Source of the DNA: Blastochloris tepida
Lineage (GTDB): Bacteria > Pseudomonadota > Alphaproteobacteria > Rhizobiales > Xanthobacteraceae
Direction of reading: 5' to 3'
NCBI RefSeq assembly: GCF_003966715.1
Contig: NZ_AP018907.1
Location: 1,724,001 to 1,788,000 of the forward strand
Length of the DNA: 64,000 nt
Part shown: piece after piece, positions 18,917 through 42,613 of the stretch
Layout: each line of letters starts with the position of its first letter
How positions within the stretch are numbered: the stretch's first letter is position 1
Notes under the pieces: generated by a model
Told to the model about the DNA's origin: nothing
Databases searched by the model: none
What the model saw: the letters and a program-made list of their open reading frames with translations, nothing else
Made by a program: the position numbers and the translations under genes

Positions 18917-20335
18917 CTAGAAACCTTGCTTCAAAAGATTCGCGACCGGCTGTTCGGGCAGGATCGCGTCCTCGTCTTCGCCGACCTTCAGCACGTCGCC
19001 CGGCATCAGCACCGTCGTGTCGGTGGCGGACACGACCTTCGGGCCGTCCTTCGTCTGCCGGACGATCGAGTGGCTCGGCGGCTTGCTTCCGAACGTCATG
19101 GCTACCAGCCGCTTGGCCTTGTCGAGCACGCCCGGAAGCATGTCGGCGGAAGCCATCACCGAGATCTGCACGTCGCCGATGGACTGCTTCACTTCGGCGA
19201 TCGACTTGGTGAGAATCGCCGTCCGCTCGGCCGCGAGACCGGCCTTGGCGCGCTCGGCCTGCTCCAGGCGACTCTTGGCGTGCAGCACCGCAAGCAGGTG
19301 GTCCTGCCAGCGGACCTCGATGTCCGACAGTTCGGTGCGCAGCGTCACGAGCGTGTTGCTCGACACCATCGCCCGCTCCTTGAGCTTCATGATGGTGTCG
19401 ATCCGCTCGAGCCGAAGCTCCTTCTGCTTCTCGATCTGCGCCGACTTGCGCTCGAGCGCCTCGATCTCGTTCTGCGCCGACTTGATGGCCGCCGTCGCCT
19501 CGTCCACGCGCTGCTGATGCTTGACGCGGTCGAGCTGGCTCGCCGCCATCTCCGCCGACAGTGCGAGCCGCGCATCATTCTCGCCGACCAGCGACAGAAG
19601 CTGTGCGGGCGGACGCGGCACGCCGCCATCGCGTTCCGATTCCAGCACGGCCTGGCGCGCAAGAAGCCGCTTCAACTGGTCCGCCGCCCGGCGAAGCTTC
19701 TCGAACTCCTGGACGCGGTCGCCCTTGTCCGCGCCCATGAAACCCAGCCTGTCGAGGCCACCGGCAAGCGCGATCGCCTGAAGCGCCGTCATTCCGGGCG
19801 TGTGCTTGTAGGCGCCGGGCTTGCGGAGCGGTCCCACCACATAGACCGGCGCCCGGTCGACGATGGTGATGTTGACATCGGCGCCGCGGCCCATCGCCTT
19901 GGAGAACGCCTTCACCAGATCGCGCTGCACCTCGTCGAGCCGGCGGTCCTGCACGACGAATCGCCCGAGCCGCGGAAACGAGATCGAGCCGTCCACCTCG
20001 ACCGCATACTCGCCGGAGAAATCCATGCGCTGATAGAATGTGCGCAGCGCCGACCGCGCGCCGGCATCCGACGCGCCGTTCGCGGGAACGTCCATCGTCT
20101 CGAAGAACGAGATCTTGAGTCGGTCGCCGATCGCCACGGTCGAACCGCCGAGAGACTCAGCGTCCGAGCGGGAGGCGGGAATCGACGAGGTCGGTCGATC
20201 GTCCGTGCCGGCACTGTACTCCTGTGCCTTTCCGCTCTCGCCAACGCCGACGATGACCGCGAAGATTGCAAGTGCCGCAGCGCTCCCAACGAGCGCTCCC
20301 CGGCCCGATAGGCTGCGCGGATAAAAATCGAGCAT
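18917..20335 (-). CDS. polysaccharide export protein, ExoF/Wza (OPX) family
   Basis: This 472-residue protein has an N-terminal hydrophobic leader (residues about 12-35). A Poly_export domain follows (VAIGDRLKISFFE ... VDGSISFPRLGRFVVQ, about 65-170), then an SLBB-type segment (APVYVVGPLRKPGAYKHTPGMTALQAI, about 175-200), a long coiled coil (about 220-380) and a C-terminal SLBB-like end (VLMPGDVLKVGED). The order is closest to ExoF-type proteins of rhizobia. It would help carry polysaccharide across the envelope and may replace the PelB/PelC exit. It is first in the minus-strand operon leading to the adhesin, 252 bp before it. Two Crp/Fnr-like dyads lie 185 and 249 bp upstream. ATG at 20335 has GAGGAG upstream. 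Confidence 0.85.
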   Translation of the reverse strand: MLDFYPRSLSGRGALVGSAAALAIFAVIVGVGESGKAQEYSAGTDDRPTSSIPASRSDAESLGGSTVAIGDRLKISFFETMDVPANGASDAGARSALRTFYQRMDFSGEYAVEVDGSISFPRLGRFVVQDRRLDEVQRDLVKAFSKAMGRGADVNITIVDRAPVYVVGPLRKPGAYKHTPGMTALQAIALAGGLDRLGFMGADKGDRVQEFEKLRRAADQLKRLLARQAVLESERDGGVPRPPAQLLSLVGENDARLALSAEMAASQLDRVKHQQRVDEATAAIKSAQNEIEALERKSAQIEKQKELRLERIDTIMKLKERAMVSSNTLVTLRTELSDIEVRWQDHLLAVLHAKSRLEQAERAKAGLAAERTAILTKSIAEVKQSIGDVQISVMASADMLPGVLDKAKRLVAMTFGSKPPSHSIVRQTKDGPKVVSATDTTVLMPGDVLKVGEDEDAILPEQPVANLLKQGF

Positions 20336-20519
20336 TATTCCCGCTCCTCTTCTTCAGACGCCGCAACCAACCCACACGCCTTCACCCAAAGGCGCCTCAC
20401 TTGCTTTCGTCAGATATGTCTTGATTGCGCTGTGTTGTGGTGGTTAATTTTTCGTTAACTTACAATGTTCTACAAGAAATGATTGTATCAAAGCGACTAT
20501 GACCGGGCTATTCCTAATG

Positions 20520-20535
20520 TCTGACCCAAATCAGA
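20520..20535. promoter_or_regulatory. candidate Crp/Fnr-type operator 1
   Basis: TCTGA-CCCAAA-TCAGA is a perfect 5-bp dyad with a 6-bp spacer, the TGA-N6-TCA geometry of Crp/Fnr sites. It lies 185 bp upstream of the OPX gene. Confidence 0.55.
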
Positions 20536-20599: not shown

Positions 20600-21568
20600 C
20601 TATGGATACTTGAGTTACCTATCGTCACAGACGTAGATTCCATGCAGGAAAGTCGGCCCGCGCAGGGTGCGCGTGAGAGCTTCGGCCCGCCGGAGCGGCG
20701 CCCCGAGAGGAGACTGTCGGCTGCGCGGCGTGGTGTCGGCGACCCGCAGTCGGCCTGGGCGTGCGAGCGGACGCTGCGAGGCGTCAATGGAGGGCAAAAT
20801 TGCCGTCAGGCGGCAACTGACGGCATGACGCGATCCGGCCGCTTTTGTTGTGGACAAGCTTCCGTTGCAAACGCGCGTTGCAACGTCGCCTGCCAGTCCG
20901 CCGGCACCGGGCCGGTCTGGGAGTGGCGGTCGACGGAGTTGCCGTCTTGGGAATCCCCGTCCCCAGGGACGCCATCCACCCGGCGCGGCTTGGCGGATTT
21001 CAGTTTCGGGGGCTTCGCCTCGAGATTCGGGTTTCGCGGTTCTGTCGGCGAACAGCGTCGACACAAAGATGAATGAACGATTTGTCGCGCAGTCCGCGCG
21101 GCGTGGAGGCCGTCGGTCATGTCGATCGGCGGCCTGCTGCGTCTTGCCAGCATTTCTGCCAGGATCTCGCTCACCGTGCGTAAGCATCCGCGTCCGCATT
21201 TCTCAACGATACCCTGCGATGTCAAGGACTCACGCACATGCGAGATCCCTGTTGACTGCCAGTTCTCTTGCTGGATCCGATAGCGACTCGCTCATGACTC
21301 TGAAATATCATCACGACTTCGAGCGACCGCAGAGGCAGACGATCAAATAGCGACTCGCACGATCACCAAACTCATTTTTCAAGCTATTTCGAAATACATT
21401 ATGGTTAACACAGTTAACAACCGTATACCGCTACATTGTTTATTGATGCGGCACTTGGCGGTTTTATTATTTTCGACATTCATAGGCATACTTTTGACAT
21501 TATACGAAGATAATTTTGCCCTAGGTGTCGGCGACGCTTGAGTGCCATTGTTTGAGGGAGCCTCCGTT

Positions 21569-22927
21569 ATGGCAGTGACAGGCATGTACGTTCTGCAAGG
21601 TGTCGTACCGTCCGAGGTGGCATCTGCGCCGTTTGATGTAAAAGTCGTTGAAACATACAACGACAATGGGACTGCTTTTTCCAAAGCAGACGTCGCCAAG
21701 ATGACGGCCGGCGCCGGTGACGTTCTTGGATATTTCTGTCTCGGAGAGGCGGAAAATTATCGCAGCTACTTCAAATCCCTGCCCAAGTCCGTATTGGGTC
21801 CGGTCGATCCCGATTGGGCTGGCAATTACCAAGTCGCCTATTGGTCGACGGAGTGGAAGTCGGTCGCCAAGGCGGAAATCGCCCGGATGGTCCAGGCTGG
21901 CTATGACGGCGTCTATTTCGACGTCATCGACGAATACGAGATGGCCTGGGCGAAGAAGAATGCCCCGGGCGGCGATGCCGCCGGCGCGATGAAGTCTCTC
22001 GTCAAGGAGCTGTCAGCTTACGCCAAGAGCCTGGATCCCGACTTCAAGGTCTGGGTCAATGGCGGCGAGGGTCTGCTGACGGACGCGAGCTACGTCAAGG
22101 CCGTCGACGGCTTGTTCAAAGAAAACCTGTTCTACGACTTCGACGGCAGCAACAAGATTGCGGCCGCTGATACCCAGTACTCGCTCGATCTGCTGAAATA
22201 CGCGACCAATGCCGGAAAGCCGGTGGTCGCCATCGAATATGTGGCCGGCAACGCGACCAAGGTCGCCGACGTTCACGCCAAGGCGGCCAAGGCCGGAATC
22301 GGAAGCTACGTCGCCGAGCTGGAGCTCGACGGCATCAATCTGGCCGACAACCCCGTCACCACGTCGGGCGGCAGCACCGGCAGCTCGACCGGCACGGGCA
22401 CCGGCGGCACCGTGACCACGAACCCCGGCTCCACCGACTCGGGCTCGGACAGCGGCTCCACCGATGCCGGCTCGGGCACCGGTACCGGCACCAACGGCTC
22501 CGGCACCCGGCGGAATTCCGGCTCGGGCTCCACGAGCTTCGGCCGCCGCAACGGCTCATCGGCCACCGACACCGACTCCGGCACGTCGTCGTCCGGCGGC
22601 GGCTCCTCGACGCGGCGAACCTCTCTCGGGTCGTCGCGCAGCAGCCCGTCCGTCACTTCGTCCGGCGACAGTACCCGCACCACCACGTCCTCCGGCACCA
22701 GCAGCCGCCTGCTCGGCACCCCCACCACGCTGGGCTATTCGTCCGACACGACGTCATCGGACACCACGTCGGCGGCCAGCGCCGGCACCGGCCGCTCGCG
22801 CCTCGCTTTGCTGAACCAGTACGCGGCGTCGAGCTTCGACACGGCTGGCGCCTTCCAGAGCCGGACCGCGTCGCAGGACCGGGCCTCGGAGAGCCTGATC
22901 CAGATTACCCAGTCGCAGCACAGGTGA
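21569..22927 (+). CDS. leaderless GH114/TM1410-type polygalactosaminidase-like protein with Ser/Thr/Gly-rich tail (hydrolase 2)
   Basis: This 452-residue protein has no signal peptide (MAVTGMYVLQG). Residues 5-260 form a TM1410-type barrel with GYDGVYFDVIDEYE (D118, D121) and KENLF (E185) at the positions shared with the two other hydrolases. Residues 263-405 are low-complexity Ser/Thr/Gly with many DS/TD steps, and the last 45 residues form a distinct end (LNQYAASSF to ITQSQHR). Genes for a HlyB-type ABC transporter and a HlyD-type adaptor follow directly on the same strand, so the protein is probably exported by type I secretion with its signal in the tail. It would cut the Pel-like polymer outside the cell. 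ATG at 21569 is chosen over a GTG at 21542 because GAGGGAG lies just before it. Confidence 0.75.
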   Translation: MAVTGMYVLQGVVPSEVASAPFDVKVVETYNDNGTAFSKADVAKMTAGAGDVLGYFCLGEAENYRSYFKSLPKSVLGPVDPDWAGNYQVAYWSTEWKSVAKAEIARMVQAGYDGVYFDVIDEYEMAWAKKNAPGGDAAGAMKSLVKELSAYAKSLDPDFKVWVNGGEGLLTDASYVKAVDGLFKENLFYDFDGSNKIAAADTQYSLDLLKYATNAGKPVVAIEYVAGNATKVADVHAKAAKAGIGSYVAELELDGINLADNPVTTSGGSTGSSTGTGTGGTVTTNPGSTDSGSDSGSTDAGSGTGTGTNGSGTRRNSGSGSTSFGRRNGSSATDTDSGTSSSGGGSSTRRTSLGSSRSSPSVTSSGDSTRTTTSSGTSSRLLGTPTTLGYSSDTTSSDTTSAASAGTGRSRLALLNQYAASSFDTAGAFQSRTASQDRASESLIQITQSQHR

Positions 22928-23035: not shown

Positions 23036-25198
23036 GTGACTGACAGCAACGAGGTGGCCTGCTCGTCCGAACCCGGGATCCCCCACGATCCCGGGCTGAT
23101 CGCGCTGGTCATGATGCTGGGGTTCCACGGGTTCGGGGTCGATCCCGAGCAGGTCCGCCATCAGTTCGGCGCCCGGCCGATCGGCGTCGCCGAGATGATT
23201 CGCGGCGCCCAGCAGTTCGGGCTGAAGGCACGGGCGGTCCGCAGCAATTGGAGCCGTCTGGCGAAGACGCCGCTGCCGGCCGTCGCCACGCTCAATGACG
23301 GCAGCTTCCTGCTGCTCGGCAAGGTGGGCGAGAGCGAGATCCTGGTGCAGGCGCCGGATCGCGCCCGGCCGGCGATGATGACGCGCGAGGAATTGGAGCG
23401 GGTCTGGAGCGGCCAGCTCGTGCTGATGACGAAGCGCAGCTCGCTCACCGACCTGACCCGCCGCTTCGACATCACCTGGTTCTTCGGCGCAATCCACAAG
23501 TACCGGTTCCTGCTGGGCGAGGTGCTGGTCGCCTCGTTCTTCCTCCAACTCCTGGCGCTGGTCTCGCCGCTGTTCTTCCAGGTGGTGATCGACAAGGTTC
23601 TGGTGCACCAGAGCATGCGCACGCTCGACGTGCTGGTGATGGGGCTCGTGGCCATCGCCGTGTTCGAGACGGTGCTCGGCATCCTGCGCACCTATCTGTT
23701 CGCGCACACCACCAACCGGATCGACGTCGAACTCGGGGCGCGGCTGTTCCGGCATCTGCTGGCGCTGCCCATCGCCTATTTCCAGGCGCGGCGCGTCGGC
23801 GATTCGGTGGCGCGCGTCCGCGAATTGGAGAACATCCGGAACTTTCTCACCAGTTCCGGGCTGACGCTGGTCATCGACCTGTTCTTCACCTTCGTGTTCA
23901 TCGCGGTGATGTTCTTCTATTCGCCGCTGCTGACCATGGTCGTGCTGGCGTCGCTTCCCATCTATGTCGGCATCTCGGCGGCGGCGACGCCGCTGTTCCA
24001 GAAGCGTCTCGACGAGAAGTTCGCCCGCGGCGCCGAGAACCAGGCGTTCCTGGTCGAGAGCGTCACCGGGGTCGAGACGCTCAAGGCGATGGCGGTCGAG
24101 CCGCAGATGCAGCAGCGCTGGGAGGAGCAGCTTGCCGCCTATGTGAGCGCGAGCTTCAAGGTGCTGAGCCTCGGCAACACCGCCAGCGAGAGCGTCCAGC
24201 TTGTCAGCAAGCTGGTCACCGCCGCCCTGCTCTATCTCGGCGCGCAGCTCGTCATCGAGGGCCGGCTCACGGTCGGCGAGCTGGTGGCGTTCAACCTGCT
24301 GGCCGGGCGGGTCAGCGCGCCGGTGTTGCGGCTCGCGCAAATCTGGCAGGACTTCCATCAGGCGCGGCTGTCCATCGCCCGTCTCGGCGACATCCTCAAC
24401 ACCGCGCCCGAGCCGCTCTACAGCCCCGGGCGGATGACGCTGCCGATGATTCGCGGCGATGTCAGCTTCGAGCACGTCACCTTCCGTTATCGCATCGACG
24501 GACCGGAGATCCTGCACGACATCAATCTGCACGTTCCCGCCGGCCAGGTGATCGGCGTGGTCGGCCGCTCGGGCTCGGGAAAAAGCACGCTCGCCAAGCT
24601 CGTCCAGCGGCTCTACGTGCCCGAATCAGGCCGGGTGCTGGTCGATGGAATCGACGTGGCGCAGGTCGATCCGGCCTGGCTGCGGCGCCAGATCGGCGTG
24701 GTGCTGCAGGACAATATCCTGTTCAACCGCACGGTGCGCGACAACATCGCGCTGGCCGATCCGGCGCTGCCGACCGGGCGCGTCATCGCCGCCGCGACGC
24801 TGGCGGGCGCGCACGAGTTCATCATGCAGCTTCCGCAGGGCTACGACACCATCGTCGGCGAGCGCGGCAGCAGCCTGTCCGGCGGTCAGCGCCAGCGAAT
24901 CGCCATCGCCCGCGCGCTGATCACCGATCCGCGCATCCTGATCTTCGATGAAGCGACCAGCGCGCTGGATTATGAGAGCGAGAGCATCATCCAGCAGAAC
25001 ATGGCGCAGATCGCCGAAGGGCGGACGGTGTTCATCATCGCCCACCGGCTGTCGGCGCTGCGGCAGGCCGACCGCATCATCACCATCGAGCGCGGACGGC
25101 TGATCGAGGACGGCACGCACCACGAGCTGATGCTCAAGGCCGGCGGGCGCTATGCGACGCTGTACCGGCTGCAGGCCGGGCTGCACGAGGTGATCTGA
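23036..25198 (+). CDS. type I secretion ABC transporter, HlyB type with inactive C39-like domain
   Basis: The 720-residue exporter begins with a C39-peptidase-like domain (residues about 14-130, DPGLIALVMM ... LNDGSFLLLGKV). The catalytic Cys is absent, so it is a substrate-binding domain as in HlyB. Six transmembrane helices (about 155-440) and the nucleotide-binding domain follow: Walker A GRSGSGKST, signature LSGGQRQRIAIARAL, Walker B ILIFDEATSALD, H-loop IAHRL. The GTG start at 23036 follows CCCGGAGGACGAGG. Its neighbours are the leaderless hydrolase upstream and a HlyD protein 8 bp downstream, which together form one export operon. Confidence 0.93.
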   Translation: MTDSNEVACSSEPGIPHDPGLIALVMMLGFHGFGVDPEQVRHQFGARPIGVAEMIRGAQQFGLKARAVRSNWSRLAKTPLPAVATLNDGSFLLLGKVGESEILVQAPDRARPAMMTREELERVWSGQLVLMTKRSSLTDLTRRFDITWFFGAIHKYRFLLGEVLVASFFLQLLALVSPLFFQVVIDKVLVHQSMRTLDVLVMGLVAIAVFETVLGILRTYLFAHTTNRIDVELGARLFRHLLALPIAYFQARRVGDSVARVRELENIRNFLTSSGLTLVIDLFFTFVFIAVMFFYSPLLTMVVLASLPIYVGISAAATPLFQKRLDEKFARGAENQAFLVESVTGVETLKAMAVEPQMQQRWEEQLAAYVSASFKVLSLGNTASESVQLVSKLVTAALLYLGAQLVIEGRLTVGELVAFNLLAGRVSAPVLRLAQIWQDFHQARLSIARLGDILNTAPEPLYSPGRMTLPMIRGDVSFEHVTFRYRIDGPEILHDINLHVPAGQVIGVVGRSGSGKSTLAKLVQRLYVPESGRVLVDGIDVAQVDPAWLRRQIGVVLQDNILFNRTVRDNIALADPALPTGRVIAAATLAGAHEFIMQLPQGYDTIVGERGSSLSGGQRQRIAIARALITDPRILIFDEATSALDYESESIIQQNMAQIAEGRTVFIIAHRLSALRQADRIITIERGRLIEDGTHHELMLKAGGRYATLYRLQAGLHEVI

Positions 25199-25206: not shown

Positions 25207-27177
25207 ATGAAGACCAAACCGCACGCCGCCAATGATCCGGGACTGCTCGTTCTCGGCATGCTGTTTCGCCTGCGCAACATCCCCGCCGATTTCGACATGC
25301 TGGCACCGTCGGCGGGCGCGGTGGATGTGCCGGCCATGCTGCGCTTCGCCCGCGCGCACGGCCTCAAAGCCCGCGCCGCCAATATGGGCTGGAAGCAGCT
25401 TCAGGGCGCGCCGCTCCCCGCCATCGCCGCACTCACGGACGGCAGCTTCCTGCTGGTCGGCCGGGTGGCGGACGACCGGGCGATCGTGGTGGCGCCGACC
25501 GCCACGCGGCCGGCGATGATGACGCGGGACGAATTCGAGGCGGCCTGGAGCGGGCAGATCGTGCTGATCACACCGCGCAGCGCCGCCGACGCCCGGCTGC
25601 GACGCTGGGCCAGTGCCGCCATTGCCGCGCCGGCGCGCCTCGTCCAAACCCTCGCCGGCCGTATCCGCCGCCTCGCCAATCCCATGGCGGCGCGCGAGGC
25701 GGCGCAGCGCGGCGCGACGGCCGCAAGCGGCGTGATCATCGATTTCGCCGAGCGGGCCCGCAAGCTGCAGAACGCCGTGGCGCCGAAACCCCGGACTTCC
25801 TCCCGCCGCACTGCCGAGGAACTGGCCTTCCTGCCGGCGGCGCTGGAGATCGTCGAGACGCCGCCCTCCCCGATCGGCCGCGGCATCATCTTCAGCCTCA
25901 TCGCCATCATCGTCGCGGCGCTGGCGTGGTCCAGCCTCGGCACGGTCGATATCGTCGCGGTGGCCCAGGGCAAGATCATCCCGAGCGGCCGCACCAAGAC
26001 GATCCAGCCGTTCGAGACCGGCATCGTGCGGGCGATCCATGTCAGCGACGGCCAGCGGGTGAAGGCCGGCGACGTGCTGATCGAGCTCGACCCGACGATG
26101 AACGCGGCCGAACTCGGGCGCCTGCGCGCCGATCTGCTGGCGGCGCGCCTGGAGGTTGCGCGCCTCCACGCGGCGCTGAACGGCGGCGACGACCCGGTGG
26201 CGGCGTTCGCGCCGCCTGCCGATGCGCCAGCCGATCTGGTGCAGATGCAGCGCCGCTTCCTGCTCAGCCAGATCACCGAGCAGAAGGCCAAGATCGCCGC
26301 CATCGACCGGCAGGTGGCGCAGCGGGAGGCCGAGCGCGCCACGATTCGCGCCTCGATCGACAAGCTCAAGGCGACCATGACGCCGCTGCAGCAGCGCGTC
26401 GAGATCCGCGAACACCTGTTCCAGAAGGAGCTGGGCTCGAAGATCGTCTATCTCTCCGAAATGCAGGAGCTGATCGGCCAGCGCCAGGAGATCCTGGTGC
26501 AGGAGAGCCGCTACAGCGAGGCGGAGGCCGCCATCGCCTCGCTGGTGGAGACGCGAAACCGGGCCGTGGCCGAATACGAGCGCGGCCTGTTCGACGAATT
26601 CGCCAGGGCCGAGCAGCGGGTCGCAGGGCTCGCGCAGGACATCATCAAGGCCGAGCAGCGCACCAGCCTGCAGAAGCTCACCGCGCCGGTCGACGGCAAG
26701 GTGCAGCAGCTCGCCGTTCACACCATCGGCGGCGTGGTGACGCCGGCGCAGACCCTGATGCTGATCGTGCCGGCGGAAAGCCGGCTCGAGATCGAGGCCA
26801 TGATCTCGAACCGGGATATCGGCTTCGTCGAGGTCGGCCAGGAGGTGGCGATCAAGGTCGACGCCTTCAACTTCACCCGCTACGGGCTGCTGCACGGCCG
26901 GATCCTGTCGATCTCCCAGGACTCCATCACCCGCGACCGGGGCCACGACCGCGATGCGGCGAGCAGCGAGCCCAGCAGCGAACCGAAGGGGCAGGAACTG
27001 GCCTACGCCGCCCACATCTCGCTCGACCGGACCGAGATGGATCTCGGCGACAAGCGCGTCAGCCTGTCGCCGGGCATGGCGATCACCGCCGAGGTCAAGA
27101 CCGGCTCGCGCCGGATCATCAGCTATCTGCTGTCGCCGCTGGTTCGCTACAAGCAGGAAAGCCTGCGCGAGCGCTGA
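25207..27177 (+). CDS. type I secretion membrane-fusion protein (HlyD) with an N-terminal C39-like domain
   Basis: This 656-residue protein is longer than usual HlyD (about 480). Residues 8-125 are clearly homologous to the C39-like domain of the preceding ABC transporter (DPGLLVLGM, LTDGSFLLVGRV, RPAMMTRDEFEAAWSGQIVL). It again lacks a catalytic Cys. A basic linker (130-220) precedes the single transmembrane helix (about 222-242). The periplasmic lipoyl, coiled-coil and beta-barrel parts follow (IQPFETGIVRAIHVSDGQRV, VDGKVQQLAVHTIGGVV). The predicted cytoplasmic C39-like domain would give the adaptor its own cargo-binding site next to that of the transporter. The gene ends at palindromic repeat B and is convergent with the disrupted regulator. 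Confidence 0.9.
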   Translation: MKTKPHAANDPGLLVLGMLFRLRNIPADFDMLAPSAGAVDVPAMLRFARAHGLKARAANMGWKQLQGAPLPAIAALTDGSFLLVGRVADDRAIVVAPTATRPAMMTRDEFEAAWSGQIVLITPRSAADARLRRWASAAIAAPARLVQTLAGRIRRLANPMAAREAAQRGATAASGVIIDFAERARKLQNAVAPKPRTSSRRTAEELAFLPAALEIVETPPSPIGRGIIFSLIAIIVAALAWSSLGTVDIVAVAQGKIIPSGRTKTIQPFETGIVRAIHVSDGQRVKAGDVLIELDPTMNAAELGRLRADLLAARLEVARLHAALNGGDDPVAAFAPPADAPADLVQMQRRFLLSQITEQKAKIAAIDRQVAQREAERATIRASIDKLKATMTPLQQRVEIREHLFQKELGSKIVYLSEMQELIGQRQEILVQESRYSEAEAAIASLVETRNRAVAEYERGLFDEFARAEQRVAGLAQDIIKAEQRTSLQKLTAPVDGKVQQLAVHTIGGVVTPAQTLMLIVPAESRLEIEAMISNRDIGFVEVGQEVAIKVDAFNFTRYGLLHGRILSISQDSITRDRGHDRDAASSEPSSEPKGQELAYAAHISLDRTEMDLGDKRVSLSPGMAITAEVKTGSRRIISYLLSPLVRYKQESLRER

Positions 27178-27180: not shown

Positions 27181-27307
27181 TGATACGGTTTCCGGTATCC
27201 CGAAGGGATCAACCGGAAACGGCCTCGCCGAAAACCCCTCGTTCAGAAGTGGGATTTTCGGCGATCTGACTACGGTTCTCCGGCCCTGGAGACCGGAAAC
27301 CGTATCA
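27181..27307. repeat. cloverleaf-like palindromic repeat, copy B
   Basis: The outer arms ATACGGTTTCCGG and CCGGAAACCGTAT enclose an inner stem TATCCCGAAGGGAT with CCGGAAAC and a second stem CGCCGAAAA with TTTTCGGCG. It fills the gap between the convergent HlyD and Crp-family genes, and the latter's stop (27305-27307) lies in its end. Confidence 0.9.
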
Positions 27308-27545
27308 TTTCTCCTTGACGGCGCGCCTCAGGATGCCGGCGATCGTCGATGCCTGCATCAGCGCATCAACGTCCTTGATCATGACGTCGTTGCGGCCCGC
27401 GCGCTCGATGATCCCGGCTGTCGCGAGCTGGACCATGATCCGACTCAAGGTATCGGCATTGATCGCCAGATAGCTCGCAATATCGTCCCGCGAGGGAAGC
27501 TTGATGACCGGCTGCCGCTCATCATGGCGCAGCGACAGATAAAGC
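27305..27545 (-). pseudogene. Crp/Fnr-family regulator, 3' fragment (HTH domain), separated by IS66 insertion
   Basis: This fragment encodes the C-terminal winged-helix domain. It includes LPSRDDIASYLAINADTLSR, in which D-x-x-S-R matches the E-x-x-S-R recognition helix of Fnr, and ends AVKEK-stop. Removing the IS and one target-duplication copy joins it in frame to the 5' fragment (30333-30927), giving a 275-residue protein (595 + 233 bases, divisible by three). Confidence 0.85.
27538..27545. repeat. 8-bp target-site duplication, left
   Basis: GATAAAGC directly abuts the left inverted repeat of the IS66 element and is repeated at 30333-30340. An 8-bp duplication is characteristic of IS66. 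Confidence 0.95.
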
Positions 27546-27578
27546 GTATCCCTCCGGCGTGGGCCGCAGGTGGGGCGC

Positions 27579-27821: not shown

Positions 27822-27823
27822 GC

Positions 27824-35083: not shown

Positions 35084-36169
35084 ATGGTTTCCATTCGGAC
35101 CTCCGGTGCGCGAGACGACAAGGCTCACAGCACGGGAGCGGCTGGTGCTCGCGCCTCGCATCCCCAGCAGCCGAGCCTGATCGAGCTGCTGTCCGTCGAA
35201 AGCTGGCGTCGGTTCGTGCTTGAGACGCTGCTGCTGGTGGCGGCGGCGACGGCGTTCCAGCTGATGGTGTACGGCAGCACCGTCGTGCCGGCCGGCGCCT
35301 TCCACCCCTATTGGGTGCCCGTGCTGCTGATCGCCTGCCAGCATGGCGTGATGGCCGGCATGTTCGCCACAGTGGTCTGCTGCGTCGGCTATTTCGGCTT
35401 CGGCATACCGAGCTATCTCGTTTCCGAGGACTTCCACGTCAATGCCGCCGCAATTGCCGCGCAGCCCGCGGCTTGGCTTGCGGCGACGCTGGTCCTTGGC
35501 GGCCTGCGCACGTTGCACATGCACCGCCAGACCGAGCTCGCCGAACGCCTGAAGATGGCCGAGCATCGGACCGAGGACTTCGCCGACGCGCTGGAGCGCG
35601 CGACGGAAGAGATCCGTTCGCTCGAGGCGCGCATCGCGGCGCAGCTTGCCGATGCGGCAACGGTGTCGCACACACTCGCCAATCTCGATCTCACCAGCCG
35701 GCGGCGCGCCGTCGCGAGCTTCTGCGACCTGCTGCGCTTCTGCGGCGGGGCATCCACGTTCACGCTCTATCTGATCGAGGGGCGCGAAGCGCCCGTCGCT
35801 CTCGCCGTGGTCGATGACGTGGTCTGTCCGGTGGAGCCGTTCGCGCCGTTGGACGCCGCCGCGCTGCAGGCCGCGCTGACGCGCGCCGCAAGCCGTCTCC
35901 CCATGGGTCAGGATCCGGCATCGGGCAGCCAGCAGGCGCATGTGTCGATCCTCGCGCTCGACGAGCCGGGGGCTCAGCCTCTCGGCCTCATCGTCTGCAG
36001 CGCGTTCCGCACCAATGAGGATGTCGGCCACGCCCGGCAGCGGCTCGACGAGCTGTGCCGCGCCCTGGCGAAAATCCTCAGCATGTGCCCGCCCGCCCAG
36101 GCCGGCGGATACGTCCGCGACCGGCTCCAGACCGAGCGGCTGCAGGTCGTGCGGGAGGCCGTGCGATGA
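35084..36169 (+). CDS. pelD: PelD-like membrane protein, truncated (GAF only, no GGDEF)
   Basis: The 361-residue protein has an N-terminal membrane region of about four helices (residues about 43-145), a coiled coil (150-205) and a GAF-like domain (about 210-345) ending RLDELCRALAKIL. P. aeruginosa PelD is about 455 residues and ends in a degenerate GGDEF domain whose RxxD site binds c-di-GMP to switch on polymerisation. That domain is missing here, as the reading frame closes right after GAF. Identity as PelD rests on topology and on the immediately following pelE, pelF and pelG, with an ATGA overlap to pelE. Confidence 0.8.
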   Translation: MVSIRTSGARDDKAHSTGAAGARASHPQQPSLIELLSVESWRRFVLETLLLVAAATAFQLMVYGSTVVPAGAFHPYWVPVLLIACQHGVMAGMFATVVCCVGYFGFGIPSYLVSEDFHVNAAAIAAQPAAWLAATLVLGGLRTLHMHRQTELAERLKMAEHRTEDFADALERATEEIRSLEARIAAQLADAATVSHTLANLDLTSRRRAVASFCDLLRFCGGASTFTLYLIEGREAPVALAVVDDVVCPVEPFAPLDAAALQAALTRAASRLPMGQDPASGSQQAHVSILALDEPGAQPLGLIVCSAFRTNEDVGHARQRLDELCRALAKILSMCPPAQAGGYVRDRLQTERLQVVREAVR

Positions 36170-37128
36170 TGCCCCGGCTGGAGCAATCGGGTTTCGCCGC
36201 GGCGGCCACGCTCGGGCGGCATGCGCTGACGGCGGTGCCCGGCGGCGTTCCGGCCGCGGTCGCGGTCGCCGCCGTCCTGCTCCAATCGATGCTGCTGATC
36301 GGCCTCGCGCGCGGTCTCTTCGGGCTTGCGGTCTATGTCGCCCTGCAGTGCCTAGCCGGCCTCGCGGCCTGGCTGGCTTTTCGCCGCTGGGTCACCTCCG
36401 GCGACGGGCCGCAGGGACGCCTGTTCGCGGCGCTGAGGCTCCAGGTGATCGTGTGGTCGATCCTCGCCGGGCCGTTCGGAGCGCTCGTCCTTCTCGCCTA
36501 CACGCTCGCGCGCAAGGACCCCTCCCTCAAGCTGCCCGGAATGGAAGACTTGGCCGAACCGCCCTCCGCCGAGGAGGACCGCAGCGAGCAGCTCCACAGC
36601 GCCCTGCTCGACAACCGGCTGCGCATCTCCGATGTCCACGGCATCCGGCCGCTCGGCGAAGTCATCGCGCAGGGCACGCAGGCCGAGAAGCTCGCCGCGC
36701 TGAGCATCATCGCCCGCAACTATCGTGCGCCGTTCGCCGCCGTCCTCAAGCGCGCTTTGGCCGATTCCGAGGCGCCGGTGCGCGTGCTGTCGTCGACCGT
36801 GCTGGCCGAACTCAACAGCCGCTTCATGCGCGCCATCGGCCAGCGGCTGGCGGCGGTGGAGCAGGATCCCGGCTCGGCGGCGGCGTGGGTCGAGCTTGCC
36901 GACGCGCGCCTCGACTATGCCGCGAGCGGGCTGCTCGACCTGTCGCGTGCCCAAACGGAAACCGCGGGTGCGGCGGAGGCTTTGTCGCGCGCCGCTGGCA
37001 TCGCACCGAACGACCACGACCTGCACGCGCGTCTCGACGGCGTCCGCCAGCGCCTCGCCCGCTTTCCCGATCTGAGCGCCGCGTCCGAGAACACCGACGG
37101 CCAGCCGGCAACAGGGGGCGGTCGATGA
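36166..37128 (+). CDS. pelE: PelE-like inner-membrane protein
   Basis: This 320-residue protein has two N-terminal transmembrane segments (about residues 32-60 and 80-115). A cytoplasmic helical, TPR-like region follows (LHSALLDNRLRISDVHGIRPLGEVI; later AAWVELADARLDYAASGLLDL). The length matches PelE (about 330). It overlaps both neighbours by ATGA. PelD, PelE and PelG form the inner-membrane synthase complex in Pel systems. The start is ATG 36166 inside the pelD stop. Confidence 0.85.
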   Translation: MMPRLEQSGFAAAATLGRHALTAVPGGVPAAVAVAAVLLQSMLLIGLARGLFGLAVYVALQCLAGLAAWLAFRRWVTSGDGPQGRLFAALRLQVIVWSILAGPFGALVLLAYTLARKDPSLKLPGMEDLAEPPSAEEDRSEQLHSALLDNRLRISDVHGIRPLGEVIAQGTQAEKLAALSIIARNYRAPFAAVLKRALADSEAPVRVLSSTVLAELNSRFMRAIGQRLAAVEQDPGSAAAWVELADARLDYAASGLLDLSRAQTETAGAAEALSRAAGIAPNDHDLHARLDGVRQRLARFPDLSAASENTDGQPATGGGR

Positions 37129-38615
37129 CACAAGCGGCCGATGTCTGCCTGCTCATCGAAGGCGGCTACCCCTATCTGCTGGGAGGCGTCGCCTCATGGA
37201 CAGACGCCTATATTCGCACCTCGCCGCAGCTCAAATTCCATGTCGTCTCGATCATGGTGTCGAGCCAGCCGCGCGTCCCGCGCTTCAAGCTGCCCGAGAA
37301 CGTCACCGGCGTCACCGACGTTCTGCTGGACAAGTGCCGTCCCGGCACCGCGCCCTCGCCCTGGGACTGGCGCCGCGTCGCCGAGCTCAGCCAGGCGGCC
37401 GAGGAGACGCTGGCGACGGGCGACGCCACAGCCTTCGCATCCCTGGTCGACGGCCTGAAGGAGACCGGCTACGGCCAGGAGGCGCTGCTCGATTCCCGCC
37501 CGGCGTGGCGCGCCTTCGAAGCCGCCTATGAGCGGTTCCTGCCGGGCGGCTCGTTCCTCGGCTTCTTCTGGTCGTGGCGGTTTCTGCTTCAGGCCCTGCT
37601 CTCCATTTCCACCGCGCCCGTGGCGAATGCGCGGGTGTTCCACGCTCTGGGGACGGGATTTGCCGGCCTGATGGGCAGCTACGCCAAGGTCGCGAGCGGA
37701 CGGCCGCTCGTCATCACCGAGCACGGCATCTACACCAACGAGCGGCGCATCGACATGGCGACCGCCGACTGGCTGTTCGATTCCGGCAAGGGCGGCTTCG
37801 ATGCGGCGACCCAGGCGCCCGAGCTGCGGCGCGTCTGGCTGCAGGCCTACAATTCGCTGTCGCGGCTCGCCTACGCCAACGCCGACATCATCACCTCGCA
37901 ATACAAGGCGAACCAGCACATCCAGCGCCAGGACGGCGCGCCCGAGGAGAAGCTGCGCATCATCCCGAACGGCATCGATGTCGAACGCCTCGCCGCCATG
38001 GCGCGCGACACCAAGGCACGGCGGCCGACCGTTCTGATGATCGGCCGGATCGTGCCGATCAAGGACACCCGGACATTCCTGATGGCGGTCGCCCAGCTCA
38101 AGGCGATGGTGCCCGATGTGGTGGCCGTGGTGATCGGCCCCGAGGAGGAGGATCCGGCCTACGCATCCGAGTGCCGCCAGCTCGTGACCCAGCTCGATAT
38201 CGAAGCGAACGTGCGCTTCCTCGGCCGCGTTCCCGATGTCTTCGAATACCTGCTCGCCGCCGACGTGATCGTGCTGACCAGCATCAGCGAGGCGCAGCCG
38301 ATCGTCATTCTCGAAGCGGGCGCCATCGGCGTGCCGGTGGTGTCGACCGATGTCGGATCCTGCCGCGAGGTGATCGAGGGCTTCGACGAGGATCCGGTCA
38401 AGGGAGCCGGCGGCATCGTCGTCGACCCCTGCGATCCCACCGCCACGGCGAAGGCGCTGGCGACGATCCTGCGCGATGCCGAGATGCGCCAGAGCATGGG
38501 CGACGTGATGCGGCGCCGCATGTCCTGCTACTACCACCGCAACCGGGTCCGCGGGCTTTACGAAGGGCTCTATGACGAGCTGAACGCCGCAAGCGAACAA
38601 GGGCGGCCGCAATGA
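37125..38615 (+). CDS. pelF: PelF glycosyltransferase (GT4)
   Basis: This 496-residue cytoplasmic GT-B glycosyltransferase polymerises the Pel backbone from a UDP-hexosamine. The diagnostic N-terminus LLIEGGYPYLLGGVASW (residues 8-24) and ITEHGIYTNER are typical of PelF. The C-terminal Rossmann half has IIPNGIDVERL and the donor-binding E-x7-E type segment around SEAQPIVILEAGA. The start at 37125 overlaps the pelE stop; the frame is open further upstream but that part is shadow sequence. Confidence 0.95.
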   Translation: MTQAADVCLLIEGGYPYLLGGVASWTDAYIRTSPQLKFHVVSIMVSSQPRVPRFKLPENVTGVTDVLLDKCRPGTAPSPWDWRRVAELSQAAEETLATGDATAFASLVDGLKETGYGQEALLDSRPAWRAFEAAYERFLPGGSFLGFFWSWRFLLQALLSISTAPVANARVFHALGTGFAGLMGSYAKVASGRPLVITEHGIYTNERRIDMATADWLFDSGKGGFDAATQAPELRRVWLQAYNSLSRLAYANADIITSQYKANQHIQRQDGAPEEKLRIIPNGIDVERLAAMARDTKARRPTVLMIGRIVPIKDTRTFLMAVAQLKAMVPDVVAVVIGPEEEDPAYASECRQLVTQLDIEANVRFLGRVPDVFEYLLAADVIVLTSISEAQPIVILEAGAIGVPVVSTDVGSCREVIEGFDEDPVKGAGGIVVDPCDPTATAKALATILRDAEMRQSMGDVMRRRMSCYYHRNRVRGLYEGLYDELNAASEQGRPQ

Positions 38616-39991
38616 CGAGCATCAATGAAACGCTCGAGGCGATGACGCGCCGGCCGATGCTGACCAGCATCGCCCTCGCCTATCTCTACAGCGCGCTCAT
38701 CGTCGCCGGACCCTGGATCTTCACGGTTCTCGGGCTGGTCGGCCTGTCGATGGCCCCTTGCGGATCGTTCTGCGACCAGCTCCCGGTGTTCCGCTCGATC
38801 GTCATCTACAATTCCGCCTTCGCGCTCATCGTCACCAGCCCGCTCGCCTTTCTCTGCGGGCGCTACGTGTCCGGCAATCTGTTCGAGGGGCGGCATGACA
38901 CCATCATGTACGCCCTGGCCTTCGGCCTCCTGGTTTTCGGCGCGGTCGTCATCGTGCTGGCGGTGCCGTTCTATCTGTTCGCGACCACGCTCCAGCCCTC
39001 CGAGAAGATCGCCGCCATCCAGAATGTCGCGCTGATCGGCGCGTCGTGGCTGCTGGTGCCGTTCTGCAGCGTGCTGCGGGCCCACAACACCGTGCTCGTC
39101 GCTTTCGGCGTCAGCAGCGTCGCGATGTTCCTCGGCAGCGGCCTGCTGCACGATCCCTCGGTGACGTCGCTGCTGTCGACGCTCAATGCAGGCTTTGCGA
39201 TCACCGACGCGATCATGCTGGTCGGGCTGGTGCGCCGGCTCGGCCCGAGCATCGTGCCCGACGAGGGGCTGTTCGCATTCCTGCGCCGGGCGTGGGAGAT
39301 TCCCGCGGCGGGGCTGGCGTTCGCGCTCGGCCTGTGGATCGACAAGATCATCATGTGGCACGCCGCACCGGACGACAATCTCGTCGTCGCCGGCGTGCTG
39401 CGCACCATGCCGAGCTACGATACCGCGATGTTCTGGGCGCAGATGTCGGCGATCCCGGTCATCTCGGTGTTCTTCGTCCACGTCGAGACGCGCTTCTCCT
39501 CCTCGGTCGAGCGCGCGCATGAGCGGTTGCGGAACCATGCGAGCCTGCGCGAGATCAAGCTCCGGATCAACGACGTGAGGACGGCGGCGCTCTCCGGCAT
39601 CGTGACGATGTTCTCGGGGCTGGTGATCGTCGGCATCCTCGTCATTCTGTCGTCGTTCGTCTTCATGAACGAGCTCGGGCTCCGGCCGAGCTACATGGGC
39701 GCACTGCGAACGGCGGTGATCGCCACCACGTTCTACACCAGCGCGATGTTCTGCTTCTATTTCCTGATGCACTTCGACCTGAGGCGGCAGGCGTTGGTGG
39801 TCGTCGTCACCTATGCGCTCCTGAACGCCAGCCTGACCCTCGCCTTCGTCGGGGCCGGCGAGGATTTTTACGGTTACGGCAACCTCCTCGCCTCGGCGAT
39901 CGGCTTTCTCTTCAGTTTTGCCGTTGTGCTGCGTGAGCTTTCGTGGCTGCCATTCCATGTCTTCATCACCAACAACGCGTCTATTCGGTGA
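38612..39991 (+). CDS. pelG: PelG polysaccharide flippase-like membrane protein
   Basis: The 459-residue polytopic protein has about 12 predicted transmembrane helices and belongs to the PelG/MOP flippase-like family (LAYLYSALIVAGPWIFTVLGL, AGLAFALGLWIDKIIMWHA). It would move the growing chain across the inner membrane together with PelD and PelE. Length matches PelG (about 456). ATGA overlap with pelF; the operon then pauses for 143 bp. Confidence 0.94.
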   Translation: MTSINETLEAMTRRPMLTSIALAYLYSALIVAGPWIFTVLGLVGLSMAPCGSFCDQLPVFRSIVIYNSAFALIVTSPLAFLCGRYVSGNLFEGRHDTIMYALAFGLLVFGAVVIVLAVPFYLFATTLQPSEKIAAIQNVALIGASWLLVPFCSVLRAHNTVLVAFGVSSVAMFLGSGLLHDPSVTSLLSTLNAGFAITDAIMLVGLVRRLGPSIVPDEGLFAFLRRAWEIPAAGLAFALGLWIDKIIMWHAAPDDNLVVAGVLRTMPSYDTAMFWAQMSAIPVISVFFVHVETRFSSSVERAHERLRNHASLREIKLRINDVRTAALSGIVTMFSGLVIVGILVILSSFVFMNELGLRPSYMGALRTAVIATTFYTSAMFCFYFLMHFDLRRQALVVVVTYALLNASLTLAFVGAGEDFYGYGNLLASAIGFLFSFAVVLRELSWLPFHVFITNNASIR

Positions 39992-40134: not shown

Positions 40135-41121
40135 ATGTTGAACGGTAAGAAGGTCGTTGTGACCGGTGCGGGCGGCTTCATCGGCAGCCACCTCGTCGAA
40201 GCTCTTGTCGCCGCGGGCGCGAACGTGACCGCCATGGTCCGCTACAACTCGTCGTCCTCGATCGGCAATCTCGCATTCCTGCCGCCGGACATGCGGCGCT
40301 CGGTGCGGATCGCCAGCGGCAATGTCGAGGACAGCGATTTCGTGTTCGGCGTGGCGAAGGGGCAGGACGTCATCTTCCACCTCGCGGCGCTGATCGCGAT
40401 TCCCTATTCCTACGAGGCGCCGCGCAGCTATGTCCGCGCCAATGTCGAGGGCACGCTGAACGTGCTCGAGGCGGTGCGCCGGTTCGATATCCCGCGCATG
40501 GTCCACACCAGCACGTCGGAGGTCTACGGCACCGCGCTCTATGCGCCGATCGACGAGAAGCATCCGCTGCAGGGCCAATCGCCCTACTCCGCCACCAAGA
40601 TCGGCGCCGACAAGCTGGCCGAGAGCTATTTCCGCTCGTTTGAGACGCCGGTGGTCACCGTGCGGCCGTTCAACACGTTCGGCCCGCGCCAGAGCGCGCG
40701 CGCGTTCATCCCGACCATCATCTCGCAGGCCCTGGCGCGCGACGAGATCCATCTCGGCTCGCTGACGCCCGAGCGGGACATGACGTTCGTGACCGACACC
40801 GTCGCGGGCTTCCTGGCCGCGGCGACGGCGCCCGGCGTTCCCGGCATGACCCTCAATCTCGGGACCGGCGTCACACACTCGGTCGGCTGGTTCGCCAAGC
40901 GCATTCTCGAACTTATGAAGCTGGACAAACCGATCGTTCAGGACGAAGACCGTCTGCGTCCGGCGCTCAGCGAGGTCATGAAGCTCGTCTCGGACAATTC
41001 GCTGGCCAAGACGGCCATGGGCTGGACGCCGACCGTGTCGATCGACGACGGACTGCTGCGGACCATCGAGTTCGTGACGGAAAACCTGGGGCGGTACGAC
41101 ACGAGCGCGTACGTGCGTTGA
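40135..41121 (+). CDS. LegB-like NDP-sugar 4,6-dehydratase (extended SDR)
   Basis: The 328-residue SDR has the motif VTGAGGFIGSH at residues 7-17 and characteristic segments of the LegB/NDP-HexNAc 4,6-dehydratase group: FHLAALIAIPYSYEAP, HTSTSEVYGTA, PYSATKIGADKLAESY (catalytic Tyr and Lys) and RPFNTFGPRQSARA. These enzymes convert an NDP-hexosamine to its 4-keto-6-deoxy form. With the nucleotidyltransferase (33304) and the RMD-like reductase (34146) it could make a 6-deoxy amino sugar. It lies between pelG and a TPR gene on the same strand. Confidence 0.85.
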   Translation: MLNGKKVVVTGAGGFIGSHLVEALVAAGANVTAMVRYNSSSSIGNLAFLPPDMRRSVRIASGNVEDSDFVFGVAKGQDVIFHLAALIAIPYSYEAPRSYVRANVEGTLNVLEAVRRFDIPRMVHTSTSEVYGTALYAPIDEKHPLQGQSPYSATKIGADKLAESYFRSFETPVVTVRPFNTFGPRQSARAFIPTIISQALARDEIHLGSLTPERDMTFVTDTVAGFLAAATAPGVPGMTLNLGTGVTHSVGWFAKRILELMKLDKPIVQDEDRLRPALSEVMKLVSDNSLAKTAMGWTPTVSIDDGLLRTIEFVTENLGRYDTSAYVR

Positions 41122-41233
41122 TCATCGGCCGGGGTCGTCCCGGCCCCGACCGGCCACACCGCAAGGCGGTCGACCGGCAGAGCAGAGCGGTGGAGGCGGC
41201 GACGTCTCGCATTCGGAAATCGAGGGCGCACTC

Positions 41234-42613
41234 ATGAAGGCATCCGTCGCGTTCGGTGTTCTCGTTTTCACGTTGCTGGGCATCGCCGTCGCGACCCTGT
41301 CGCCGCGCGGCGACGAGCGCATCGCGATTCTGCTCGACAAGCACCGGTTCAGCGAGGCAGCCGCGGCGCTTGAGAAGAAGATCAAGGCCGATCCCGGCGA
41401 TCAGGCGGCGCAGCGGGCGCTGGCCCAGGCCTATGCCGGCCTGGGCAAGTACGACCATGCCGCGTCCCTGTTCGACAAATACCTCGCCGACCACCCGGAC
41501 GACGTCGCCGCCCGCGAGATGCTGGCCGAGGTGCTGCGGAAGCTCGGGGCGAGCGAGCGCCATATTGCCGAGCTTTCGCGCGTGGTCGCGGCGCAGCCGA
41601 CCGGAGCGCGCGTCGGCGCCCTCGCCGATGCCTATCGCGACGCCGGCCGGTCGCAGGACGAACTGGCTCTCCTGCGGGCTCATTCGGAGCCGGATTTTCT
41701 CAGTCTCACCCACGCCGCGCGACTCGGGCAGCTCCTGGCGGACGGCAACGAACTCGAGGCCGCCCGGCAGCTTCTCGAGCGCATCGATGCACGGGCGCCG
41801 CTGGCCCTGAGCGAACCGCGTCTGGTGCTGCTCGATGTGCTTGTTCGGCTGGGCCGCACCGACGAGGCGGCGACGAAGGCGGCGGCCTGGCTGCAATCCT
41901 GGAAGACGCCCTATCTCGCGACCGGGGTTCTGACCCGGCTCGCCCGCTCCCAGACCCGGACGAAGGCCTACGAGGTGGCGCGGCTCTGCGCCAATGCGCT
42001 GCCGGACAACGTGTTCGACATTGCCGGCCAGCTCACGGCGGACGGCTACGGCGACGTGTCCCGCGAGATGCTGATCCAGTGGTCGGAAACCCACCCCAAC
42101 CCGCGCGGCCCGCAACTGAAGACCTTCATGTTCGCGGCAAGCCAGATCGGCGACGCGGCGCTGCCCTTCCGGATGTTCACGCGGCTGGTGAACATGGGCA
42201 AGGATCCGGCCGCCGAGGCGCAGATGGCGGAGGAGATCGCCGCGGTGTTCGGCATGACGGCGCTTGAGCCGCTGCGGCCGATGCTGTCGTTCGACGCGCT
42301 GCTGGCCCGCCCGCTGTTCGCCGCCGAGCTCATGGTCTACGAGCAGAGCCTCGAGCTGGCCCGCTGGTATCTCGCCCAGGCCGATCCGTCGCAGCTCGAT
42401 TCGGACGGGCTGACCACTTGGCTCACGCTGTCGCAGCGTCTGGAGCCGCGCGCCACCACGTTCGAACGCATGGTCAAGCTGTGGCGGGCCGGCACCCTGC
42501 CCGTCGAGCTGCTGCGCCCGCTGGCAAACGAGGCGCTGAGCCTGGGCGACTACCGCACCCACGATCTGGTGCTGCATTCCATGAGCCGCCTGGAATCGAC
42601 GCAGGAACACTGA
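41234..42613 (+). CDS. TPR-repeat protein, possibly a barrel-less PelB equivalent
   Basis: This 459-residue protein has an N-terminal membrane anchor (VAFGVLVFTLLGIAVATLS, residues 5-23). A helical repeat array follows, with TPR-like units (HRFSEAAAALEKKIKADPGDQAAQRALAQAY split at about 37-67, then GKYDHAASLFDKYLADHPDD at about 71-90) extending to the end. PelB in P. aeruginosa has a membrane anchor, many TPRs and a C-terminal 16-strand barrel. Here no beta-barrel follows. Its position at the end of the pel region suggests a periplasmic scaffold; PelB relatedness is inference. Confidence 0.7.
   Translation: MKASVAFGVLVFTLLGIAVATLSPRGDERIAILLDKHRFSEAAAALEKKIKADPGDQAAQRALAQAYAGLGKYDHAASLFDKYLADHPDDVAAREMLAEVLRKLGASERHIAELSRVVAAQPTGARVGALADAYRDAGRSQDELALLRAHSEPDFLSLTHAARLGQLLADGNELEAARQLLERIDARAPLALSEPRLVLLDVLVRLGRTDEAATKAAAWLQSWKTPYLATGVLTRLARSQTRTKAYEVARLCANALPDNVFDIAGQLTADGYGDVSREMLIQWSETHPNPRGPQLKTFMFAASQIGDAALPFRMFTRLVNMGKDPAAEAQMAEEIAAVFGMTALEPLRPMLSFDALLARPLFAAELMVYEQSLELARWYLAQADPSQLDSDGLTTWLTLSQRLEPRATTFERMVKLWRAGTLPVELLRPLANEALSLGDYRTHDLVLHSMSRLESTQEH

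Follow-up and report, generated by a model that had tools for sequence, protein, structure and literature searches.

The 64,000-bp stretch of Blastochloris tepida DNA analysed here (the window; bases 1724001–1788000 of the complete 3.95 Mb chromosome of genome G000) contains a Pel-like exopolysaccharide locus accompanied by a predicted deacetylase domain on a giant RTX protein. The genes pelD, pelE, pelF and pelG overlap one another in this order (35084–39991, plus strand), and all the other parts named in the initial annotation were likewise present, i.e. three GH114 glycosidase genes, a Wza-type export protein, a TPR protein, two type I secretion system (T1SS) pairs and the RTX protein. Most of these parts are within positions 18917–42613, as first delimited, but the RTX protein, the second T1SS pair and the third GH114 gene lie outside, and the true extent of the locus is ca. 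6900–42613 (Table 1). The pelD and pelE products gave no pel-specific Pfam or NCBIfam match, and were recognised by profiles from related loci.

Table 1. Features of the Pel-like locus of B. tepida (positions in the window; pairs of T1SS genes are numbered).
Feature	Position	Strand	Basis
GH114 glycosidase, third copy	6900–8141	-	PF03537 48.7 bits, cut-off 27
T1SS adaptor, HlyD family, pair 2	8138–9457	-	PF13437 E 9e-16
T1SS ABC transporter, pair 2	9588–11351	-	PF00005, PF00664
Giant RTX/cadherin protein, 2371 aa	11549–18664	-	Pfam RTX, Cadherin, Big_9
Predicted deacetylase domain (DEAC) of RTX protein, aa 411–700	16565–17434	-	Predicted fold and conserved residues
Wza/ExoF-type polysaccharide export protein	18917–20335	-	PF02563 E 4e-10, PF10531 (SLBB) E 2e-6, both above cut-off
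GH114 glycosidase	21542–22927	+	PF03537 E 3e-25, above cut-off
T1SS ABC transporter, HlyB type with C39-like domain, pair 1	23036–25198	+	TIGR01846 1027 bits, cut-off 725.55
T1SS adaptor HlyD with N-terminal C39-like domain, pair 1	25207–27177	+	TIGR01843 407.5 bits, cut-off 208.65; PF03412
IS66-family insertion	27545–30333	-	IS66 transposase domains; perfect 23-bp inverted repeats at 27545 and 30311
Open reading frame starting as regulator, interrupted by IS66 element	29944–30927	-	88.9% identity to sister species G297 over residues 1–198
GH114 glycosidase	31300–32211	-	PF03537 E 1.5e-17, above cut-off
Sugar nucleotidyltransferase	33304–34164	+	PF00483 E 6e-42
NDP-sugar epimerase/dehydratase	34149–35069	+	PF01370 E 5e-33 on reading frame from 34038; start from G297 homologue
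PelD-like protein, short	35084–36169	+	Profile of relatives, E 6.8e-29
PelE-like protein	36166–37128	+	Position and profile from relatives
PelF glycosyltransferase	37125–38615	+	NF038011 E 8e-120, 401 bits, cut-off 100; PF11997 E 1e-65
PelG polymer transporter	38612–39991	+	PF16933 263.8 bits, cut-off 29, E 4e-78
NDP-sugar epimerase/dehydratase	40135–41121	+	PF16363 E 1e-61
TPR protein with N-terminal hydrophobic segment	41234–42613	+	TPR families only

The RTX protein is composed, from its N-terminus, of a beta domain (aa 1–170), a mixed alpha/beta region, the deacetylase domain (DEAC), a beta-rich region, cadherin/Ig-like repeats and, near the C-terminus, RTX repeats (PF00353 156 bits, cut-off 23). 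Structure models of aa 1–838 and of the deacetylase domain alone reached pLDDT values of 87.1 and 84.3, respectively, and the structural matches of the latter were polysaccharide deacetylases. The description of a deacetylase-like region in the initial annotation agrees with this predicted fold and with the orthologue L080 passing PF01522 (23.6 bits, cut-off 23.1), although the window copy itself had no match to the Pfam deacetylase family; two further orthologues fell just short of the cut-off (19.1 and 18.5 bits). Residues D430, D432, H506, H510 and H653 were kept in all 24 aligned sequences (out of 43 DEAC open reading frames, ORFs), the first motif being D-x-D (D430, D432) and the second HxxxH (H506, H510), with residue roles assigned by motif instead of superposition. 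The metal-binding Asp-His-His set and the fold of metal-dependent polysaccharide deacetylases are both present, and DEAC is accordingly a predicted enzyme of this kind, belonging to the CE4 superfamily in the wide sense.

In the predicted model the DEAC region shares the overall PelA-like fold (alpha/beta, deacetylase and beta-rich domains). At sequence level, comparison of the DEAC and PelA profiles gave a probability of 18% with the metal motifs not aligned. The DEAC profile (A2) returned no PelA up to E 5 from PDB sequences, and the matches obtained were weak (E 0.012 to 0.77), all eight being carbohydrate deacetylases or esterases aligned over the HxxxH region; the same search with the single window sequence gave no match. 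Foldseek ranked the Aspergillus Agd3 first for DEAC (E 3.8e-14), but with TM scores of 0.34/0.40 and an rmsd of 10.8. No choice was made between CE18 and CE21 kinship, since Agd3 was not among the 50 VIA matches listed for the aa 1–838 model, nor among the 50 listed for the domain alone, and PelA was not among the 50 Foldseek matches listed. The initial proposal of dispersed PelA functions holds insofar as a deacetylase is present outside PelA, but literal dispersed pieces of PelA were rejected. Because sequence profiles fail to align the catalytic region of DEAC to PelA, the arrangement looks like replacement rather than dispersal, i.e. another enzyme whose overall fold is similar.

Occurrence of DEAC was studied in 84,980 species genomes. 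The scan relied on exact matches to six peptide patterns taken from a single protein, and reaches close relatives only. Confirmation of 38 of the 47 stretches resulted in 38 loci in 35 genomes, all alphaproteobacterial by title (Blastochloris, Sphingomonas, Sphingobium, Methylobacterium, Bradyrhizobium, Roseiarcus, Rubellimicrobium, and metagenome-assembled genomes, MAGs). With the window genome and G377 from an even sample of the class, the DEAC-bearing genomes amounted to 37, and every one of them had PelG, which was present in 21 of the 385 genomes of the class sample (two of these 21 bearing DEAC) and above cut-off in 3 of 297 genomes of the order. The co-occurrence, which the initial annotation had proposed to check, gave a Fisher test p-value of 7e-39 when related genomes are treated as independent, and 33 of the 37 genomes had DEAC and pel genes together on a single stretch or contig. 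From the three Blastochloris species compared, G298 had neither DEAC nor PelG. The sister species G297 holds the whole cluster with 83–98% protein identity over 17 queried genes; its contig ends within the RTX gene, and this comparison thereby excludes the second T1SS pair and the third GH114 gene.

Gene order differed between lineages, being DEAC-pelG-GH114-TPR protein-PelB barrel-pelD-pelE-pelF in sphingomonads, and DEAC-PelA(inactive)-nucleotidyltransferase-epimerase-GH114-pelD-pelF-pelG-epimerase-TPR-Wza in Roseiarcus, the latter representing the same set as in the window. A second, shorter DEAC is encoded in the window genome at C1:744897–747407 (L175, 72% identity) and in G297 (C55, L176), with no pel gene in the surroundings fetched; these second proteins of the two pelG-bearing Blastochloris genomes are ca. 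1230–1290 aa long. Two DEAC proteins were also observed in Methylobacterium soli (L183/L184), Sphingobium sp. Sx8-8 (L084/L088) and Roseiarcus fermentans (L101/L103), and in tandem in Bradyrhizobium lablabi (L082).

The fate of the PelA (CE21) deacetylase was tied to DEAC. Alphaproteobacterial loci often encode the alpha/beta-plus-deacetylase part of PelA separately, as a protein of ca. 750 aa. It was found in 18 of the 21 DEAC-less PelG genomes, every copy keeping D-x-D and HxxxH, and not found in G325 (fragmented PelG), G362 (68% complete) and G411 (complete). The 33 DEAC-linked loci had no intact PelA deacetylase at all: it was undetected in 25 and without the two metal-binding histidines in eight. 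Counted over all 37 DEAC genomes, the PelA profile gave no match in 25, eight had only copies devoid of these histidines, G693 had one such copy besides an intact one, and three had an intact copy only. In the unlinked B. lablabi, a contig end falls at the critical place and PelA has a deletion. G693 is an internal control for the exchange, as it holds both kinds of loci, DEAC-linked with a deleted PelA, and DEAC-less with an intact one.

Three kinds of PelA inactivation were identified, i.e. ASYTRP-type substitutions in three Methylobacterium, different substitutions in Rubellimicrobium, and an internal deletion in G692, G693, G700, G701 and G709. The inactive proteins were kept as open reading frames and were similar across species, which suggests that they may retain a role, e.g. 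as a scaffold. The replaced metal motif is the same in the inactive PelA of the Methylobacterium loci L071, L080 and L098, even though by PelG M. soli falls with the Blastochloris/Roseiarcus clade and the other two are placed elsewhere, which suggests mosaic loci.

In the complete chromosome of B. tepida, no match was found with the profile of the PelA C-terminal half (A1), which recovers the solved PelA 9cgy at E 1.3e-94. The Pfam model of the PelB barrel (PF24604) had no match in the window genome, but this model also fails on genuine PelB of alphaproteobacteria, with a match in one of 41 genomes, and that below cut-off. A profile built from alphaproteobacterial PelB barrels (A3) was used in its place. 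This matched the window genome only at TPR positions 144–235 of 527 (best 23.9 bits), when six other genomes matched at 430–648 bits in the same search (at least four of them had given rows to the profile). Homologues of pelA and pelB elsewhere in the genome, which would speak against the initial annotation, were thus not encountered in the form of either a PelA deacetylase or a PelB barrel. The PelC profile was also without a match in the window genome, its reach being limited, since it misses four DEAC-less PelG genomes as well.

The TPR protein has no beta-barrel and its likeness to PelB is limited to the TPR part. The Wza/ExoF-type protein is a candidate stand-in for PelB/PelC, with homologues in other Rhizobiales and in Rubellimicrobium DEAC loci; sphingomonad DEAC loci retain a PelB barrel. 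The window PelD matches positions 39–224 of a 463-position profile from longer alphaproteobacterial PelD. Within the 24 chosen loci for which PelD profile matches were obtained, PelD in all 17 DEAC-type loci printed (L179 included) ends at profile position 334 or earlier, and short PelD was found also in three DEAC-less Rhizobiales loci (G271, G274, L186). The absent part would presumably hold the c-di-GMP-binding domain, assuming the domain order of Pseudomonas aeruginosa, and for this reason the usual c-di-GMP control may be absent in loci with short PelD.

RTX motifs are a hallmark of T1SS export, which is also the route of the alginate-finishing AlgE, and such motifs were found in 35 of the 43 DEAC ORFs. 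The N-terminus of DEAC proteins has low hydrophobicity and no clear Sec or Tat-like signal according to a crude test. In the window, an ABC/HlyD pair (8138–11351, minus strand) is directly downstream of the RTX protein gene, and its ABC transporter is of the same family as the T1SS adjoining DEAC in Sphingobium and in a Hyphomicrobiaceae MAG; in two Sphingobium, a complete set of ABC, HlyD and outer-membrane protein genes precedes DEAC. The two T1SS pairs of the initial annotation are thus real, but a general tie to secretion genes did not hold, as a pair adjoins DEAC in only five of the 37 genomes, and the pair was rejected as a constant part of the system. The first pair carries a C39-like domain in both HlyB and HlyD, an arrangement unfamiliar to us; the two domains are related, and identity is 42.5% in the sister species.

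The separate GH114 genes were confirmed as three, all above the Pfam cut-off, but they do not distinguish the locus. GH114 was located with the pel genes of 32 of the 33 linked genomes (tblastn), and a separate GH114 gene is common also in alphaproteobacterial pel loci with a PelA deacetylase (e.g. L046, L054, L063, G271, G274), on account of which the GH114 count was rejected as a special trait. The copy at 6900–8141 has a hydrophobic, twin-arginine-like stretch ca. 100 residues into the ORF, the one at 21542–22927, preceding T1SS genes, lacks a clear signal peptide and carries a long tail rich in Ser, Gly and Thr, and the one at 31300–32211, with an N-terminal twin-arginine-like motif, is the counterpart of the pel-adjoining GH114 in relatives.

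The sugar nucleotidyltransferase gene holds the same position in Roseiarcus and Bradyrhizobium loci. The IS66-family insertion, without a match in the corresponding stretch of G297, does not belong to the Pel-like system. The intact G297 homologue of the regulator ORF interrupted by it has a Crp-type helix-turn-helix (HTH_Crp_2), and a relative was found in the Hyphomicrobiaceae DEAC locus L187. The stretch containing the IS66 element and a GH114 gene is bordered by a 67-bp repeat (76% identical, at 27212–27278 and 32409–32475) and by a 26-bp inverted repeat.

Taken as a whole, these observations are probably best explained by a shift of deacetylation from periplasmic PelA to a secreted DEAC acting on a Pel-like polymer. 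In Pel systems, chain synthesis and passage across the inner membrane are carried out by PelD-PelE-PelF-PelG. The corresponding products of the genes observed here would build and export a Pel-like polymer, and the TPR and Wza-type proteins probably carry the chain through the periplasm and the outer membrane, standing in the place of PelB/PelC in loci of the Rhizobiales type. We infer that DEAC is secreted and acts extracellularly: on the grounds of the missing N-terminal signal, the RTX repeats, the C-terminal ends and the adjacent T1SS pair in five genomes, the protein would leave the cell unfolded by T1SS and fold outside on calcium. As an enzyme of the CE4/CE18/CE21 superfamily unlike PelA, it would then deacetylate the polymer, on the cell surface or within the matrix, and make it cationic, with one or more GH114 enzymes trimming it. 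The cadherin-like and RTX repeats could anchor DEAC at the surface or on the polymer, as in T1SS-exported glycanases and cadherin-like lectins of Rhizobium (PMC9298526). Once DEAC was linked to pel genes, the CE21 deacetylase would have lost its metal site and become a pseudoenzyme, or vanished.

A fuller version of this scheme, in which the polymer leaves the cell with its acetyl groups in place and loses them beyond the outer membrane through the T1SS-secreted RTX enzyme, periplasmic PelA being freed to decay in several independent ways into a structural pseudoenzyme or to vanish, is one towards which we lean somewhat. In one branch it would include the exchange of PelB/PelC for the Wza type and a shortening of PelD by its C-terminal part, which probably senses c-di-GMP.

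Several points weigh against a shift of deacetylation. All support for it is computational. The T1SS pair seldom adjoins DEAC, eight of the 43 DEAC ORFs have no RTX motif, and some Methylobacterium and Roseiarcus DEAC proteins end in other repeats (DUF4214, Ig-like). The exchange is not absolute, as the complete DEAC-less genome G411 is without a PelA match, and three of the 37 DEAC genomes (G377, G702, G703) have intact PelA only; in these three, DEAC was not shown linked to pel genes. PelC was undetected in DEAC genomes, but likewise in several PelA-type genomes. Lineages are few, with 23 of the 37 DEAC genomes being Sphingomonas or Sphingobium, and on the PelG tree (54 rows; the Bradyrhizobium row L179 coded as DEAC-linked despite an intervening contig end) the DEAC-linked state needs only four changes. 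Two independent pairs were on well-supported branches, both in the predicted direction, a number with which the sign test cannot reach significance. Less acidic PelB barrels had been predicted for a neutral polymer and were seen (median net charge per 100 aa 0.00 in DEAC loci, n = 21, vs −2.41, n = 16), but were rejected as evidence, since the control PelD shifts more than PelB (2.97 vs −2.58), PelG slightly and PelF not at all. Finally, a P. aeruginosa point mutant of the PelA deacetylase makes no extracellular Pel (PMC10269871), and therefore export of an acetylated polymer needs different exporter behaviour.

Could DEAC be an adhesin or a general exo-enzyme, acting e.g. on peptidoglycan or on the polysaccharide of a host or neighbour, and be merely near pel genes? 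The large cadherin/RTX architecture, the second DEAC copies lying apart from pel genes in both Blastochloris genomes and the unlinked DEAC in G377 are in line with this, but PelG in all DEAC genomes, the linkage in most of them and the absence of the PelA metal site from every linked locus make it unlikely. Even less credible is a neutral, fully acetylated polymer, with PelA deacetylation simply lost and DEAC having another or a regulatory role: the near-neutral PelB barrels of sphingomonad DEAC loci (confounded as above) and the failure to find PelC fit it, but the full metal-deacetylase residue set is kept in all aligned DEAC sequences, and pure loss leaves the tie between DEAC and pel genes unexplained.

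The rarity of adjacent T1SS pairs and the DEAC ORFs devoid of RTX motifs would suit a DEAC acting in the same pathway within the cell envelope, reaching the periplasm by an unrecognised route; with no clear Sec or Tat-like N-terminus, and RTX motifs in the majority of the ORFs, we consider this improbable. Similarly, the association of DEAC and PelA decay has little chance of being an accident of shared ancestry, i.e. of few transferred clusters and chance decay. The ca. four state changes on the PelG tree and the non-significant sign test are compatible with such an accident, but the inactivation is of three kinds, each tied to DEAC, the inactive PelA is kept open and conserved across species, and the two loci of G693 differ within one genome.

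Current models of Gram-negative Pel place deacetylation in the periplasm as a condition of export. Export of fully acetylated Pel has been stated as not yet resolved (PMC10269871), and PelA active sites have been concluded to be conserved across phyla (PMC12022489). The DEAC loci, which belong to soil and water bacteria, represent natural systems in which PelA has lost its metal site while the genes of the Pel synthase remain next to another deacetylase that is apparently secreted, and they make the order of deacetylation and export directly testable in non-pathogenic bacteria. DEAC also makes up a new family of candidate deacetylases of N-acetylgalactosamine (GalNAc) polymers. In the literature searched, with subscription papers and supplements outside the search, no report was found of a Pel-type locus with an RTX-borne deacetylase, of a dead PelA in pel loci or of a tie between the two; Agd3 homologues near Pel genes, however, were known (PMC7229062). 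The new elements are therefore the RTX-borne deacetylase in a Pel-type locus and its tie to inactivated or lost PelA, when T1SS-borne polysaccharide processors and Agd3 homologues near Pel genes had been reported before.

In comparison with Pel of P. aeruginosa (pelABCDEFG; PelA combining GH166 and CE21), PelF and PelG of the window are alike by curated models and PelD and PelE by position and profile, and in both systems a GalNAc-polymer hydrolase, a deacetylase and a TPR protein accompany the pel genes. The window differs in that CE21 PelA, PelB barrel and PelC were undetected, PelD is short, GH114 is separate, the deacetylase is RTX-borne and of another sequence family, and the exporter is of Wza type. 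A survey of pel operons by Bundalovic-Torma and others described pelB fission and pelA rearrangement (PMC7112194).

Agd3 of Aspergillus fumigatus (CE18/CBM87) resembles the predicted role of DEAC as a secreted deacetylase of an alpha-1,4-GalNAc-type polymer with a GH114 partner (PMC7229062). The same article reports bacterial Agd3 homologues with GH114 partners, in Gram-negatives near genes resembling Pel outer-membrane parts; its Gram-negative genera are Burkholderia, Moritella and Stigmatella, whereas the DEAC loci are alphaproteobacterial, and its accessible text has no mention of the RTX carriers, T1SS and dead PelA present in these loci. HxxxH is met in DEAC, but the first motif of Agd3 is the adjacent D377-D378 instead of D-x-D (PMC7229062). 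PelADA of Bacillus cereus, the founding CE26 member, is likewise a Pel deacetylase apart from the hydrolase, beyond the cytoplasmic membrane and distantly CE4/CE18/CE21-like (PMC13254593). Unlike DEAC, it is described from a Gram-positive without an outer membrane, with no RTX or T1SS, and is predicted to associate with the PelDEFG membrane complex (PMC13254593).

PlyA and PlyB of Rhizobium leguminosarum, exported by the PrsDE T1SS, are polysaccharide processors with cadherin-like domains, but as described they are glycanases on acidic exopolysaccharide and outside any Pel locus (PMC9298526). AlgE and PsmE act on alginate instead of a hexosamine polymer, and periplasmic modifiers are also kept in their systems; like the role proposed for DEAC, they stand for extracellular finishing of a polymer by enzymes fused to calcium-binding RTX-type modules, and PsmE includes an acetyl-removing module (PMC4444821).

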